Positions 3,856 to 64,000 of a DNA stretch of 64,000 nucleotides are shown here, in pieces. The position numbers and the translations under genes were made by a program. How positions within the stretch are numbered: position 1 is the first letter of the stretch; every line of letters starts with the position of its first letter. The DNA is from Prevotellaceae bacterium (GTDB taxonomy: Bacteria > Bacteroidota > Bacteroidia > Bacteroidales > Bacteroidaceae), in contig JAQYPT010000092.1 of assembly GCA_028726625.1 (NCBI GenBank), positions 1 to 64,000 of the forward strand, written 5' to 3'. The notes under the pieces are model-generated. The model was not told the origin of the DNA, searched no databases, and was given only the letters and a program-made list of their open reading frames with translations.

Positions 3856-4252
3856 GAATTTTCTTGACAACATCCCCTTCTCTCCTTGGCGTATTTGTGA
3901 ACAACCTTAATCTTGGTCGCAAATACGCTAAGCACAAGCGATTTTTGCATGTGATTGATAAACAGGTTTTTATAAATTCCCTTCGTTGTTTTTCAATCTT
4001 TTATGACGTCTTTTTTTGCCAAAAGCATTGCATGAAGTGCCTAATATCTATGCTTTTGCGGGGAAAAGGCATGTTGGTAAGCAGGCAAAATGATGCCTTT
4101 TATCACTTGAAATCCGCTTTTTTGTGTAAATAATCGGCATGACGCACCAAATAATCGCTTGTTTGCGGTACGTTTGCCTATTGTTTTTTTCTAGATTGAA
4201 AGTTTTGAAGTGCCGTTTTTGGGGCCATTTTTTGATAAAATATTCAACAAAT
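3856..4252 (+). repeat. ~400-bp dispersed non-coding repeat, copy 1
   Basis: Collinear blocks shared with 23249-23640 and 32591-32993: GAATTTTCTTGACA, AAAAGCATTGC, ATGCTTTTGC, AAAATGATGC, GTTTGCCTATTG..TTTTTTCTAGATTGAAAG, GTGCCGTTTTTGGGG. Confidence 0.8.
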
Positions 4253-13492: not shown

Positions 13493-13827
13493 TTTTTCAA
13501 GTTGATGTCACAAAAGTAGGTAAAATATAAATACCTTGCAAAACATAGTACTATAAGTAATTATTATATTAACTTTATTTAACTAAAAAGACGTTGTGAA
13601 TATTTATTCAGAGGTCAGAGCTCTTCCACTCAAGCGGTTGCTTGTTAGCAAAAACAATCGTTTGTTGTTCAACCCCAGTAGCCTTAAACATAATGGCCGT
13701 GTTATGCGAATGTGGTGGTGAAAAAGCCTGTTTCTTAGGGCCAGGAGAACGGTTAGAGTGCTGACAATCAGAGCATTCGGTGATGAGTTATATAGGATGG
13801 TTGCGCAAGCGCATCTACTTTGAAAAC

Positions 13828-13915
13828 CAATGTCAATGATATTGGCACCCAAAGTCATTGACTTTGGTGTCCAATTCACATGACTTTGGCGTTCAAAGTC
13901 AATGCTATTGGAAAA
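13828..13915. repeat. 22-bp palindromic tandem array, locus 1 (4 units)
   Basis: caatgtcaatgatattggcacc / caaagtcattgactttggtgtc / caattcacatgactttggcgtt / caaagtcaatgctattggaaaa. Confidence 0.85.
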
Positions 13916-13972: not shown

Positions 13973-14389
13973 ATGATACGGGGAAAAGCTCTCATAGTAA
14001 GTCTTTGGCTGGCAATGCTCATGGTGTTGCTGGTGTTGGCTGTGCCTCATCATCACCACCTGAGCAACGTTTGTTTTGTGGAAGAGAGGTGCGAGACTGA
14101 CGGCCAAATCAATGACCGCCACACTCACCATCATTCTTCCGAACAGGAATCGCAGGCAGACAACTGTCCCGTAGAGCAAATCAGACACATTGTTAAGGAC
14201 GATGCGGATGTGCAACCCGTCATACAAGTGGCGCAGCAGCAGCCTCATTGGCTGTGCGCCAACGCTGCTGCCACGCACCCGCACGTTCATGAACTCTCGC
14301 CAGTTGGCGAAACGCCCGACCCCATCGCCCGGTTGCTTGAGGCACATGTAACCTCGAGTGGACGAAGGGGTCCTCCCGCTTTATCATAA
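13973..14389 (+). CDS. Small His-rich exported protein (DUF6769-like) preceding metal efflux operon
   Basis: Signal-anchor then VPHHHHLSNVCF, DRHTHHHSS; upstream of CusA-type gene. Confidence 0.65.
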   Translation: MIRGKALIVSLWLAMLMVLLVLAVPHHHHLSNVCFVEERCETDGQINDRHTHHHSSEQESQADNCPVEQIRHIVKDDADVQPVIQVAQQQPHWLCANAAATHPHVHELSPVGETPDPIARLLEAHVTSSGRRGPPALS

Positions 14390-43273: not shown

Positions 43274-44440
43274 TTATCTACTGCCCAGCAGATATTGGTC
43301 AATAAACTCACGCACGCATCCCTCGCCGCCGGCCTTCTGCATGATGATGATGCCCGGAATTTCTTGAATGGGGCGCATCGCATCGGCCGGACAGGCGCAA
43401 ATACCAACGGCACTCAGCAGTTGTTGGCAGTTGACGTCATCGCCGATGTAAGCCACTTCGCTCAAGGTAATGCCTATCTGGTCACAAATTTCCTGAGCCG
43501 CCTCAAGTTTCTCCCCATGTCGCTTGCCCTGAACGAGAAAATCGACCTTTAGCTTTTTAGCCCTGTTCTCTACCAGTTTGGTGTTCTCAGAGGTGATGAT
43601 GCCCACCTTGACACCTTGCGTCTGCAAGAGTTGTAGCCCCATGCCGTCGCGTGTGTTGAACTTCTTCAGCTCGTCACCGCTTTCTGCATAATACATGCCG
43701 CCATCGGTCAGCGTGCCGTCAACGTCGCACAAGAAGAGCTTTACGGATTTCTTCAGACTGTCCACCGCATGGTTCAAAACATGCTTTCGCATGAGATTTT
43801 CCAGGAACGTCCAATCGTCTGGTTCAGCAATCTCCATGGCCGTGTAAGCCGGCATCACATAGATACCGATGTGACCACTTAGCCTGTTGCCCGATGATAG
43901 GATATTCTCTACCTTATTTATATAGAGTGCGCCGTTCTCCATGAGCGTTCCTTCAAAATTATTTCGGGGTGGGCGATGTGTGTAGTCGTAGTTCATGCTG
44001 GTGCCATCGGCGTTCCAAAAGAACTGGTAATTGCGCACGCAGGAGAGGATGGAGTCGTATCGGGCGGTCTTGTACAGTGCCAATGCCTCACTGAAATGCT
44101 TCGTTTGCGTCATGGGCGACGTGCCCTTCACCAACATGAAGCAAGCCTCGGGTGCTGGATTGGCGGCATGGATGTACGCCAGCATCACGTTCTCGGCAGA
44201 AGGGGTGTCACAGATTTTCTCGGCTGAGCAGCGATAAAACTCTGTCTTGCGGTATGGGCGGGAAGCCACTACCCGTTCTATCTCGTCCGAATCGGTGGCC
44301 ACAATCACCTTGTCCACCTCGCGGCAGGCCTCCAAAGCCTCGATGCTCCAACACACAAGCGGCTTTCCGCAAAAGGGCTTGATGTTCTTCTGGGGGATTG
44401 ACTTGCTGCCACCCCGCACTGGAATGAATGCTATGACCAT
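43274..44440 (-). CDS. Bifunctional acylneuraminate cytidylyltransferase / KdsC-like HAD phosphatase
   Basis: N-terminal IAFIPVRGGSKSIPQKNIKPFCGKPLV (NeuA-type); C-terminal LFLCDVDGTLTDGGMYY ... FNTRDGMGLQLLQ (KdsC/NanP-type). Confidence 0.9.
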   Translation of the reverse strand: MVIAFIPVRGGSKSIPQKNIKPFCGKPLVCWSIEALEACREVDKVIVATDSDEIERVVASRPYRKTEFYRCSAEKICDTPSAENVMLAYIHAANPAPEACFMLVKGTSPMTQTKHFSEALALYKTARYDSILSCVRNYQFFWNADGTSMNYDYTHRPPRNNFEGTLMENGALYINKVENILSSGNRLSGHIGIYVMPAYTAMEIAEPDDWTFLENLMRKHVLNHAVDSLKKSVKLFLCDVDGTLTDGGMYYAESGDELKKFNTRDGMGLQLLQTQGVKVGIITSENTKLVENRAKKLKVDFLVQGKRHGEKLEAAQEICDQIGITLSEVAYIGDDVNCQQLLSAVGICACPADAMRPIQEIPGIIIMQKAGGEGCVREFIDQYLLGSR

Positions 44441-44728
44441 CTTAACTTGATTCTTTTTGAGTATGTCGCGCTGCACGTTTTGATGTCCAGAACAGTCCAC
44501 ACAGTTCCCTGTTGAGGTTATCGGCCAACGATATCTTCATCATCCGAAGCCTCAATGTGCAGATTTCTGCTTGTAAGCCTTCATGCTACTTGGCTGTGCT
44601 TGCAAATATATAAAATAATCACTCATTGACGGAATGAAACGACATGTTTTTTTGTTGCGAGCCCCTACAGCGGGGATTGAACGGGCAAGGGGCAACCTGT
44701 TTGGTCAACGAGGATGACGCATGCACTT

Positions 44729-44816
44729 CAATAGCATTGACTTTGGACGACAAACCCATAGACTTTGGTCGTCAAACTCAATGAGTTTGGCAGCCAATGT
44801 CAATGACTTTGTAAAG
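44729..44816. repeat. 22-bp palindromic tandem array, locus 2 (4 units)
   Basis: caatagcattgactttggacga / caaacccatagactttggtcgt / caaactcaatgagtttggcagc / caatgtcaatgactttgtaaag. Confidence 0.85.
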
Positions 44817-44858: not shown

Positions 44859-45722
44859 TCATAGGGTCTGCTCGGGCTTTACTATGCCGTTTCTTATTTC
44901 GCCGGGTGTGCCGCCTAATGTCTCCTTACAGAATGTGGAAAGACGCTGTACAGAGGAGAACTTGAACTGGTTGGCTATCTGCTCCATGGTGTCGTTGGTG
45001 TTGAGCAGAGCCTTGAACAGTGCCTCGCCTTTCACCTTGCTGACCCAAACCTTGGGCGTTTCGCCAAAGCATCGTTTGAAGTGACGTATAAATGTGGGAC
45101 GACTCATGCACACCTTTTCTGCCATTTCGTCAATAGAAGGATAGGTGCGCGACATCGCAATAATGGTTTCCTGGAACGACAAATCCACTCCATAGAGCGG
45201 AGCAAGAAACGGTGCCAGGTCGTCCTTGGGATAATAGGCCTGCATGACGGCCGTGAACTCGCGCTGCTTGATCAGCTGGATGTCACAACAGAGCAGTCCG
45301 TCCATGACATAGTCGGCCGTCTGTCGAGCCAGCACTGTCATCGGCTTGATCATGTCCAAGGCAAACAGCCAGTCGTCACGTTTGGGTGCATTCTCGATCA
45401 TCTCATCCGTGATGATGTTATGACAAAACTTGAATTTGCTGTCAATAAAATAAAGCACCAATACCAAACTGTCCTCCATAAAGCGAATGGAGTTGTCTAC
45501 ACCGGCTGGCATGGGAAACATCTGGCTGCCATGAACGGTGAAGCCTGGAAACCGTTTGCCTTCCACACGCAAGGTTCCCTCCAATAGAAAGAGCATGGCC
45601 GTACGCGAGGGAGCCGTGTGTCTCACCGCGCCTTTCTTTTCTCTTACAACCCTGAAACCTACAGGGGAGTTGCCTTGATAATGCTCGCACATGAGGTGCT
45701 TGTTCAGATAATATACTTTCAT
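44859..45722 (-). CDS. AraC family transcriptional regulator
   Basis: C-terminal HTH MAEKVCMSRPTFIRHFKRCFGETPKVWVSKVKGEALFKALLNTNDTMEQIANQFKFSSVQRLSTFCKETLGGTPGEIR. Confidence 0.92.
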   Translation of the reverse strand: MKVYYLNKHLMCEHYQGNSPVGFRVVREKKGAVRHTAPSRTAMLFLLEGTLRVEGKRFPGFTVHGSQMFPMPAGVDNSIRFMEDSLVLVLYFIDSKFKFCHNIITDEMIENAPKRDDWLFALDMIKPMTVLARQTADYVMDGLLCCDIQLIKQREFTAVMQAYYPKDDLAPFLAPLYGVDLSFQETIIAMSRTYPSIDEMAEKVCMSRPTFIRHFKRCFGETPKVWVSKVKGEALFKALLNTNDTMEQIANQFKFSSVQRLSTFCKETLGGTPGEIRNGIVKPEQTL

Positions 45723-48287: not shown

Positions 48288-48366
48288 TGACACCCGAACC
48301 ATAATTTACCAACCGGCCTTTCGGGTGCAGCAGATAGAGACCGTGACTAAATATACTTCAGTGGGG

Positions 48367-48405
48367 CACTACTTATACTTTAGATGCCCACTACTTATAC
48401 TTTAG
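48367..48405 (+). repeat. Two exact copies of CACTACTTATACTTTAG at 22-bp spacing
   Basis: 48367-48383 and 48389-48405 identical 17-mers; degenerate third upstream (gactaaatatacttcag). Confidence 0.8.
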
Positions 48406-48452
48406 TCGTTGTTAACATTTCCGCCGCCCGAAGGCATAAAACGATCAAAACT

Positions 48453-52950: not shown

Positions 52951-53375
52951 CTTTGGTTGGTTTTGTTGATAGAAGAATGGCTTTGTCCCAATGTTGAAGT
53001 GCAAGCCACCTTCCCAATGAACGATGTGGCGAAGATACAAATAAAAGGGAAAGGTACGCAAGCTTTTCGATGATTTTTATACGATGACGAAGAACTACTC
53101 GTTGACGATAGGTTCCTCGATGCGCCAGGAGTGTTCGGTGTATAGGTGCTTTTTGTTTTTGGATTAAACGCAACGTTCTTCCGTGAAATGTCTGCGCTCG
53201 CAACGCGTTTTTAACACAAATGCTGGGCGTTTTTTCAACCAACTCGTTCGTGTGTCGTAAATAGGCTCATTATGAGAGGAGGTTATTATTTGCTTGATTA
53301 CCATAGATTTATAGAATTTTTAACCCTAAGTCGAAATCAAAAAGCAATGAGTTTGTGCCCAAAAGCTCTTCACTA

Positions 53376-53462
53376 TGATGCAAATAGGGCGGTTATAGCA
53401 TGCATATTGAGTGGTTAAAGCATGCAACTTGGAGGGCAAAAGCATGTTGATTGCCCATTTAC
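53376..53462. repeat. Degenerate ~22-bp tandem array with GCATGC core
   Basis: AGCATG at 53398, 53419, 53441 (spacing 21 and 22) plus ATGATGC at 53376. Confidence 0.55.
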
Positions 53463-61374: not shown

Positions 61375-61834
61375 AATCAGGCAACTTCTTGACCGTTACT
61401 ATGACGGACAGACCAACGAGCGCGAGGAACAAGAGCTGAAAGACTATTTCCTTCAGGATGACGTTCCGCCTCAGTGGGTGACCGACCAACAGCTGTTCCG
61501 GCAGTTGTATGGCGCGAATATGCCGGCCATTGACGGTCTGGAGCAGCGGTTGTCGCGGCAGATTGACGGCTGGAACCGTGTGGAGAAGACGACTAGTCGG
61601 CGTTCCCGCACCGTCGGTCTGCGGTGGATGGCCGGCATTGCGGCCTCCCTGTTGTTGCTTTTCACCATCGGCCTACTGGTCGACAGGCAGCAAAAACAGG
61701 CGCAATATGCCGTGCAGCAAGATACATTCGACGACCCGAGGGATGCGTATGCCGAAACACAGAAGGCCCTGATGATGTTTTCCAAGTCAATAAACAAAGG
61801 TTTAAATAAAGTAGAAAATGTTACACAAGAGTGA
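61361..61834 (+). CDS. Anti-sigma-like membrane protein
   Basis: Overlaps sigma gene by 14 bp; cytoplasmic N-terminus MDTDKIRQLLDRYYDGQTNEREEQELKDYF; one TM. Confidence 0.7.
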   Translation: MDTDKIRQLLDRYYDGQTNEREEQELKDYFLQDDVPPQWVTDQQLFRQLYGANMPAIDGLEQRLSRQIDGWNRVEKTTSRRSRTVGLRWMAGIAASLLLLFTIGLLVDRQQKQAQYAVQQDTFDDPRDAYAETQKALMMFSKSINKGLNKVENVTQE

Positions 61835-62300
61835 TTTGACCGCATGGCTGAGATCATTGTCCCTGGCCATTTGCCTCGTATTGGGGGGTGTGTCGCTGTC
61901 GGCACAGGACCGTCTGTTCAAGCAGTTTGAGAACACCAAGGGTGTGTCCACGGTGTACATCTCGCCCGCGATGTTCAAGCTGATGCCCAAACTCGACGTG
62001 GGCGACAAGGATTTGGCTAAGCTGGCCTCTCGGCTTACGCGCTTGCAAATCCTGCAATGCGAACGCCCATCGCTGATTCCTTCTATCAAGAAGCAGGCGC
62101 AGGCGTACTATGACAACAACCGCTATGAAGTGATTATGCGGGTGAAAGACGACGACGAGCGTACCACCATCTACCAGAAAGTGGTGGGTAAGGGCAACAA
62201 TGAGTTTGTTCTTCTCAATGAGGAGAAAGACGAGCTGTCACTCATCCACCTCATTGGGAACATCACGTTGGAGGATATCAAAGACCTTTACGACAGATAG
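61818..62300 (+). CDS. DUF4252 domain protein
   Basis: Signal peptide, KGVSTVYISPAMFKLMPKLDVGDKDLAKLASRLTRLQILQCERP ... LSLIHLIGNITLEDIKDLY. Confidence 0.85.
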   Translation: MLHKSDLTAWLRSLSLAICLVLGGVSLSAQDRLFKQFENTKGVSTVYISPAMFKLMPKLDVGDKDLAKLASRLTRLQILQCERPSLIPSIKKQAQAYYDNNRYEVIMRVKDDDERTTIYQKVVGKGNNEFVLLNEEKDELSLIHLIGNITLEDIKDLYDR

Positions 62301-62322: not shown

Positions 62323-62354
62323 GAAGGCTGGTTTGAATGGACAAACCAGCCTTC
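62323..62354 (+). terminator. Rho-independent terminator
   Basis: GAAGGCTGGTTT gaatggac AAACCAGCCTTCTTTTTT. Confidence 0.85.
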
Positions 62355-62428
62355 TTTTTTCGATAGAGGGCGAGTATGGATTTCACAGCTTAACGCATGA
62401 TTGTAACTTGCTGTCATCTACGGCTTTG

Positions 62429-62538
62429 CAAACTCATTGACTTTGGACATCAAACCCATTGACTTTGGACATCAAACCCATTGACTTTGACTGCCAAACC
62501 CATTGAGTTTGACGACTAAAGTCAATGAGTTTGAAAAC
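62429..62538. repeat. 22-bp palindromic tandem array, locus 3 (5 units)
   Basis: caaactcattgactttggacat / caaacccattgactttggacat / caaacccattgactttgactgc / caaacccattgagtttgacgac / taaagtcaatgagtttgaaaac. Confidence 0.9.
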
Positions 62539-62664: not shown

Positions 62665-64000
62665 TCAGTATCTCACCTTGATGTATTTCACGCCGTGAGT
62701 GGGCACAAAGTAATTAGTATCGGTGGTAGACAAGTCTTTCTGCTGCCACAGATCACGAACGGACTGCAACTGCCGAATGCCCAGTTGGCCGAAATATTTG
62801 GAAAGATTCACGCGCGCATCCTCGCTTCCTACGTTGAAGATACCGATGGCATGACAGCCGTCGGCCAGTGGACGTTGCCATATTTGGATATCACCGTCTA
62901 GCACGTCGCGCTTGGCCTGCTTGCCCAGTGCGTCTTGGTTGATGGCGTTTACCTCGTTGTTACACAACAAACCGAAGGTGAAGTCGTCCATCTGACTGAG
63001 GTCTCCGCCCATAAGCATGTTGGCAGCCAGCAGGGTCCAGAGCGAGATGTGCGTGTACTGCTCGTCGGGTGTCAGGCGTGTGTCGTGGAGTTTTGGACCC
63101 CATCCCACCTTACCTACAACAAGCATGTCGGGGTCGTTCCAATGACCTGGCCCGGCATAGGGATAGAGTTCGGCCTGACGTACGAATCCGATGTAGTACA
63201 ACGACTGCCATGTATCGGTGATATCGCCCGTGGTTCTCCACGAATTGGCATCAACCGCATGGCCCCATTTCCACACGTCGGCCATGCCGTATTGACATAA
63301 ACTGTAGAAAATGTCGCGTGGCTGTGCGCGTAAGTATTCCTGCATTTTCAGGTAAGGGCGCACGTATGCGGCAACGGAAAGGTCGCCATCGGCATCAAAC
63401 TTGCGGCTGTAACCACACCAATCGTATTTCAGGTAGTCAACACCCCACTCGTTGTAGGTCTTCGCATCCTGCTCCTCATGGTCGAGCGAGCCAAGGTAAT
63501 GCCCGCATGTAAGGTCGCCTGGCGAGGAATAGATGCCAAAGCGCAGTCCGTTGTCGTGCAGCCAGTCGCCCAGTCCTTTCATGTTCGGGAACTTCTCGTT
63601 CACGGCAATGGTGCCGTCGGCATTGCGCTGTTCGGCCTCCCAGGCATCGTCCACGTTGATGTAATTATAGCCATAGTCTGCCAATCCACGGTCGATGAGC
63701 GCCTTGGCAGATGCCATCACTTTCTCTTGTGACACGCTGGTGCCCCAGCAGTTCCAACTGTTCCAACCCATAGGCGGTGTCAAGGCAATCTGATGACCAA
63801 CGTGGATACTGAAGTCTTTCTCATCTTTTCCCTTGCTGTTTTCGGCAATCAAGGTGAGCTTGTATTCGCCCCTCTCTTTCAAACTGCCGCTGATGACCCC
63901 GTTTTCGGCGTTGACAGAGAGCCCGGCTGGCAGGTTCTTCACGCTGAACTTCATGGGTCTGTCGCCAGAAGCAGGGATGCGGAAGATTACTGGAGAACCC
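62665..64000 (-). CDS. GH27 alpha-galactosidase-like, partial at window edge
   Basis: LTPPMGWNSWNCWGTSVSQEKVMASAKALIDRGLADYGYNYINVDDAWE; reading frame stays open (GSPVIFRIPASGDRP-M) to position 64000, with Ig-like putative N-terminal domain. Confidence 0.9.
   Translation of the reverse strand, partial: GSPVIFRIPASGDRPMKFSVKNLPAGLSVNAENGVISGSLKERGEYKLTLIAENSKGKDEKDFSIHVGHQIALTPPMGWNSWNCWGTSVSQEKVMASAKALIDRGLADYGYNYINVDDAWEAEQRNADGTIAVNEKFPNMKGLGDWLHDNGLRFGIYSSPGDLTCGHYLGSLDHEEQDAKTYNEWGVDYLKYDWCGYSRKFDADGDLSVAAYVRPYLKMQEYLRAQPRDIFYSLCQYGMADVWKWGHAVDANSWRTTGDITDTWQSLYYIGFVRQAELYPYAGPGHWNDPDMLVVGKVGWGPKLHDTRLTPDEQYTHISLWTLLAANMLMGGDLSQMDDFTFGLLCNNEVNAINQDALGKQAKRDVLDGDIQIWQRPLADGCHAIGIFNVGSEDARVNLSKYFGQLGIRQLQSVRDLWQQKDLSTTDTNYFVPTHGVKYIKVRY

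Follow-up and report, generated by a model that had tools for sequence, protein, structure and literature searches.

Plasmid iteron and centromere (parC-type) arrays consist of short sites, about 20-22 bp each, arranged in tandem, to which protein dimers bind cooperatively, and the REP/BIME repeats of E. coli bind gyrase. The E. coli REP/BIMEs also bind IHF, and REPs are targets of the IS3-family elements IS1397, ISKpn1, and ISPsy8, the insertion specificity of IS1397 and ISKpn1 being set by their transposases (PMC1525189). The octameric BarR, a member of the Lrp/AsnC family, acts on regularly spaced sites (PMC4977709). A literature search on 22-bp arrays in Prevotella or P. gingivalis yielded no description or relevant paper. 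The arrays of 22-bp units described here share features with each of these systems. They occupy tens of chromosomal loci, whereas an iteron or parC-type array occupies one plasmid locus. Like Lrp/AsnC operators they offer several evenly spaced sites per intergenic region, and an octamer built from four dimers would be matched by four such sites, but the arrays are not promoter-centred. Regular spacing and partial palindromes recall CRISPR, which has near-identical repeats and unique spacers of about 30 bp, whereas the arrays have 5-bp spacers, variable repeats, and tens of loci; the initial annotation had rightly set CRISPR aside. With REP/BIMEs they have in common that they are dispersed, extragenic, palindromic, biased to 3' ends, present in at least tens of copies, and targeted by an IS3-family element. 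They differ in their strict 22-bp register, about four units per locus, and the lack of a RAYT gene; the GTAG/CGTC tag at the stem foot was not seen, and arm complementarity is not conserved in this genome, although G374 differs in this respect. Membership fails because a search with PF01797 (Y1_Tnp, RAYT) found no such gene in six array-rich genomes (G000, which is this genome, G070, G005, G235, G275, and G374) and because arm complementarity is avoided here. The earlier label "REP-like" is thus apt for behavior but not for membership, and the arrays are dispersed extragenic palindromic repeats that work like REPs.

The window analyzed is a stretch of 64,000 nucleotides, part of contig C92 of a genome of 2.70 Mb in 101 contigs, which belongs to a bacterium of the human-associated Prevotella group. 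Near its end, at locus 3 (62429-62533), five units start at 62429, 62451, 62473, 62495, and 62517, with a period of exactly 22 bp and 0 indels, just as had been noticed in the initial annotation. The units and their surroundings are as follows.

61818 to 62300, plus strand: DUF4252 gene, convergent neighbor of locus 3
62323 to 62361, plus strand: intrinsic terminator of the DUF4252 gene, a 13-pair stem followed by TTTTTT, preceding the array
62429 to 62445, no strand assigned: unit 1, 17-bp dyad CAAACTCATTGACTTTG, followed by the 5-bp spacer GACAT
62451 to 62467, no strand assigned: unit 2, CAAACCCATTGACTTTG, followed by the spacer GACAT
62473 to 62489, no strand assigned: unit 3, CAAACCCATTGACTTTG, followed by the spacer ACTGC
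62495 to 62511, no strand assigned: unit 4, CAAACCCATTGAGTTTG, followed by the spacer ACGAC
62517 to 62533, no strand assigned: unit 5, TAAAGTCAATGAGTTTG
62665 to 63999, minus strand: alpha-galactosidase (Melibiase_2) gene, convergent neighbor of locus 3, extending past the window end

The reported position between convergent genes is correct, with the DUF4252 gene ending at 62300 on the plus strand and the alpha-galactosidase gene ending at 62665 on the minus strand, and because the intrinsic terminator of the DUF4252 gene comes ahead of the array, the DUF4252 transcript probably does not extend into the array. The initial description, in which each unit contains a half or full copy of a 17-bp palindrome, is accurate save for one detail: the perfect palindrome CAAAGTCATTGACTTTG is absent from locus 3, where the two arms are unlike each other in all five units, and is found at 13850-13866. 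As single-stranded DNA, locus 3 folds into one long hairpin (folding z -8.95) that depends on units 1 and 5 being reverse complements of each other and that is lost in both close relatives, Prevotella sp. BV3P1 (G070) and Hoylesella buccalis ATCC 35310 (G422). Each relative has four units at this locus, so that one of the five units here represents a lineage-specific 22-bp difference.

When up to 2 mismatches were allowed, the unit pattern matched 16 times in the window against 0.35 matches expected from shuffles, and the two additional loci reported for the unit were recovered.

13806 to 13910, no strand assigned: second array, four units from 13828 and a weaker unit at 13806, upstream of an ORF at 13973
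44729 to 44811, no strand assigned: third array, four units, between two tandem minus-strand genes, an AraC-type ORF (44859-45722) and an ORF (43274-44500)

The genome-wide pattern search that had been proposed shows that further arrays exist: the tandem-pair pattern CAANNNCANTGNNNTTG-N5-CAANNNCANTGNNNTTG (up to 2 mismatches) occurred at 189 places per strand and the reversed-pattern control at 0. Among 55 arrays with at least three units that were read, 45 have four units, 8 have five, 1 has three, and 1 has six, which places the copy number at a center of four. The register is fixed, as strong unit matches near these arrays lie at offsets of 0, 22, 44, 66, 88, or 110 from the array start, with 4 isolated exceptions, and the 22-bp grid extends beyond the arrays on both sides as degenerate units. 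The consensus unit is YAAWNNCAWTGNNWTTR plus 5 spacer bases, the first of which favors R and the last Y, and the column frequencies follow CAAW ... WTTG with R/Y spacer ends.

The arrays are dispersed, and all those read are intergenic. With gene orientation taken from a simple, purpose-made codon-usage gene caller and with the chance two-unit matches at window position 4020 and L050 2033 omitted, 41 classifiable arrays comprised 19 in convergent, 18 in tandem, and 4 in divergent gaps, whereas 85 array-free intergenic gaps of at least 100 bp comprised 11, 45, and 29, respectively. Convergent gaps are therefore enriched (19/41 vs 11/85; Fisher p = 9e-5) and divergent ones depleted (4/41 vs 29/85; p = 0.004). 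Between tandem genes, the arrays lie closer to the 3' end of the upstream gene (median 130 vs 211 bp, p = 0.02), and a predicted terminator precedes the array at 19 of 56 gene ends.

Around the arrays, this genome and each of the two relatives share about 94-95% identity. In a flank-gap test with a concatenated flank query from 25 loci, restricted to cases with both flanks on one contig and with gap arithmetic done by hand, none of 35 flank-to-flank measurements revealed an empty site; 33 gaps had the length of the array or differed from it by whole 22-bp units, and 2 were longer. The drift of the period in orthologues that had been named as a refuting outcome was thus not seen, although unit number differs by one between relatives at some loci. 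Compared with the two relatives, the fixed dyad positions had a substitution rate of 3-5%, against 6-9% for the arm triplets, 9-12% for the flanks, and 21% for the spacers; the low rate in the dyads is partly due to ascertainment, because arrays are recognized by their motif, a bias from which the flank-gap test is free. Position and dyad are conserved while spacers evolve fast and the sequence is species-specific, and the retention of array positions under changing letters suggests protein docking.

The two arms of each unit were compared. In this genome only 7 of 208 units had the same triplet in both arms, where 33 would be expected. Across arrays, inverted arm pairs were null or depleted and direct pairs null or enriched, the latter as expected from unit duplication. 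The z-scores are overstated because units of one array are partly duplicates and not independent, and direction and size were taken instead. As the arms avoid matching, an RNA stem-loop is disfavored and selection for an RNA stem was rejected, although the avoidance is not universal, near-perfect palindromes being common in G374. Folded as single strands, the arrays are more stable than shuffles, with RNA folding energy z averaging -5, and this stability would allow an RNA or hairpin role. An Rfam search of six sources gave tRNA, RNase P, and SRP matches only and left the arrays unmatched. Intrinsic DNA curvature, predicted with wedge parameters, was rejected, the predicted bend not exceeding that of shuffles or flanks.

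A 138-bp sequence common to the ends of many contigs proved to be the end of an element of about 1.6 kb, of which some 14-16 copies break the assembly.

L103 1 to 1601 (C28 of this genome), fixed orientation relative to arrays: IS3-family element with terminal inverted repeats TGTCTTTTCC.../TGTCTTATAC... and 3-bp duplications, inserted at array edges

Its ORFB matches the IS3 family transposase model with 220 bits (cutoff 160) and its ORFA carries HTH_Tnp_1. Outward reading from this 138-bp end was possible for 13 of 14 copies; each of the 13 borders directly on an array, its terminal CA being offset by 0 or 22 from a unit (to within 1 bp), and beyond the other end there are array remnants at most. 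Empty sites in relatives (2-3 mismatches in 50) show 3-bp target duplications. As the specificity of IS1397 and ISKpn1 lies in their transposases, the element is a parallel to the REP case and not proof of a bound host protein. At L069 2932-3014 (C57), an array lies between diverged copies of the same IS end, both facing inward, and this arrangement is kept in BV3P1 (L203).

The CAA-type unit motif was present in 38 of 398 genomes of the genus, with hosts including Xylanibacter ruminicola and rumen Prevotella. Blind sampling for repeats of any period from 10 to 59 covered five Prevotella genomes and five genomes of other Bacteroidales families. Period 22 was among the commonest in all five Prevotella genomes, often with unrelated sequences, and in three of them hardly any other period occurred except 44, which is twice as long (25 lag-22 arrays in 464 kb), whereas the 344 kb from the other families contained none except one run of N. 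In G108, where the CAA motif is absent, 100 kb contained 12 lag-22 arrays of several families. Nine copies of one family were aligned, and eight of them have in common some 50 bp of flanking sequence on either side, with TGTAAA...TTTACA close to the ends; inspection by eye revealed no target duplication around these copies. Four more lag-22 families in G108 (L268, L269, L271, and L272) have the palindromes TATGACGTCATA, TTACGTGTAA, ATTATCATAC, and TCTTATAAGA. Arrays of RGIG3773 carry inverted flanking repeats. About 27 array loci are spread along the single 2.73-Mb contig of G374, where the usual array has three units, many units are near-perfect palindromes, and convergent enrichment is not evident (6/18 vs 6/31 background). 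G374 also has compound arrays (L303-L322) in which three CAAATTC units are flanked in register by AAGTTGAACTTT-type and CAAATCAAGTTGATTTG units. Viral carriers were rejected, as no exact three-unit match was found among IMG/VR contigs.

From these data we infer three steps, namely protein binding, action as a multimer of dimers, and an architectural role. On balance we favor, with modest confidence, the reading that the array is a DNA-level docking site for several dimers of a putative DNA-binding protein that would evolve fast and probably have an architectural or insulating role at the 3' ends of genes. This would account jointly for the register, the number of copies, the conserved dyads, the loose spacers, and letters that differ between species. 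Each 22-bp unit is an imperfect 17-bp dyad (YAAWNNCAWTGNNWTTR) with a 5-bp spacer, which puts consecutive dyads about two helical turns apart and nearly on the same face of the double-stranded DNA. Each dyad would be occupied by one dimer of a single DNA-binding protein, and some four such dimers, lying side by side, might stack or wrap into a complex covering about 88 bp and serving as an insulating or organizing boundary between transcription units rather than in classical promoter regulation. The array-type binding site proposed initially is thus the best-supported reading of the sequence, resting on the fixed register, about four units, the conserved dyad with fast spacers, and the conserved intergenic position; the first reading is partly supported overall, and the observation behind it is confirmed and larger than first described.

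The strongest rival is a selfish or once-mobile interspersed repeat, similar to REP/BIMEs or MITEs, that spread in per-species bursts, is tolerated at gene ends, and has palindromes recognized only by its mobilizing enzyme. Species-specific sequence families, the common flanks and TIR-like ends of the G108 copies, the inverted repeats of RGIG3773, a 3'-end bias that is also typical of REPs, and the known targeting of REPs by IS elements (PMC1525189) all speak for it. We nevertheless consider it unlikely, as the six array-rich genomes lack Y1_Tnp, no empty site occurred in 35 orthologous measurements at about 94% identity, arrays here share no flank beyond in-register degenerate units, the G108 copies lack a visible target duplication, and REPs do not have a fixed four-unit register. 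Simple tandem slippage would explain why unit number shifts by one between relatives, but it is scarcely credible and was rejected, given that tens of unrelated loci agree in motif, phase, and unit number, that the exact period is steady in orthologues, and that multiple families share one period.

A reading in which the arrays are transcribed as strings of hairpins that terminate transcription in both directions or stabilize 3' ends would fit their location at 3' ends and between convergent genes, the folding energies, and the long hairpin of locus 3. Such an RNA-level element is improbable, however, since matching arms are avoided, U-tract architecture and Rfam matches are lacking, the locus 3 hairpin is not kept in relatives, and a terminator already lies ahead of the locus 3 array, though predicted terminators precede only the minority of arrays counted above. 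Even less probable is a cis-acting chromosome-dynamics site (curved DNA, a gyrase-type wrapping site, or a centromere-like array): the half-period of about 11 bp, the convergent genes where positive supercoils meet, and the tens of copies along the G374 chromosome agree with it, but predicted curvature is unremarkable and gyrase specificity is not expected to vary by species or by family within a genome.

For the docking array, fixed geometry with changing letters across species would fit a protein family with drifting specificity. The steady geometry, varying letters, and tens of loci per genome, in every sampled Prevotella genome, point to a widespread DNA-protein system, of which no description was found in the literature searched. 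A genus-wide chromosome-organizing or insulating system of Prevotella is conceivable but doubtful, in which one or several paralogous multimeric putative binders with fast-changing specificity would each use their own family of 22-bp-register arrays of roughly four dyads at the 3' ends of genes, while insertion sequences would use the arrays as safe landing sites. Lrp/AsnC, the sole candidate binder family tested, was rejected as not discriminating: AsnC-family genes occur in 16 of 17 genomes with or without arrays. Nothing links them to the arrays, as array-less families have a similar number (1-3) and the array-bearing genome G005 (86% complete) yielded none. The organization of the nucleoid in Bacteroidota is poorly known, and a bait whose 88-bp structure is defined allows the question to be tested directly, with the landing of the IS3-family element at array edges as a second, independent readout.

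Other repeats of the same period were also noticed. Two adjoining 22-bp direct repeats (GTGAACGGCGTGTGAAAAGCTC; CTTGTGAATT...) at L185 2870-3150 are not palindromic in appearance. In the window, positions 48343-48409 hold an exact 22-bp-period array of another sequence (TATACTTTAGTGGCCCACTACT, about 2.5 copies) directly upstream of a gene; this array (at 48352) has one locus only in the genome, which places it outside the dispersed class, and is perhaps a candidate operator. At 53325-53450, a degenerate array of GCATG-type units in 22-bp register adjoins a CAAAAAGCAATGAGTTTG unit and may be a decayed array.
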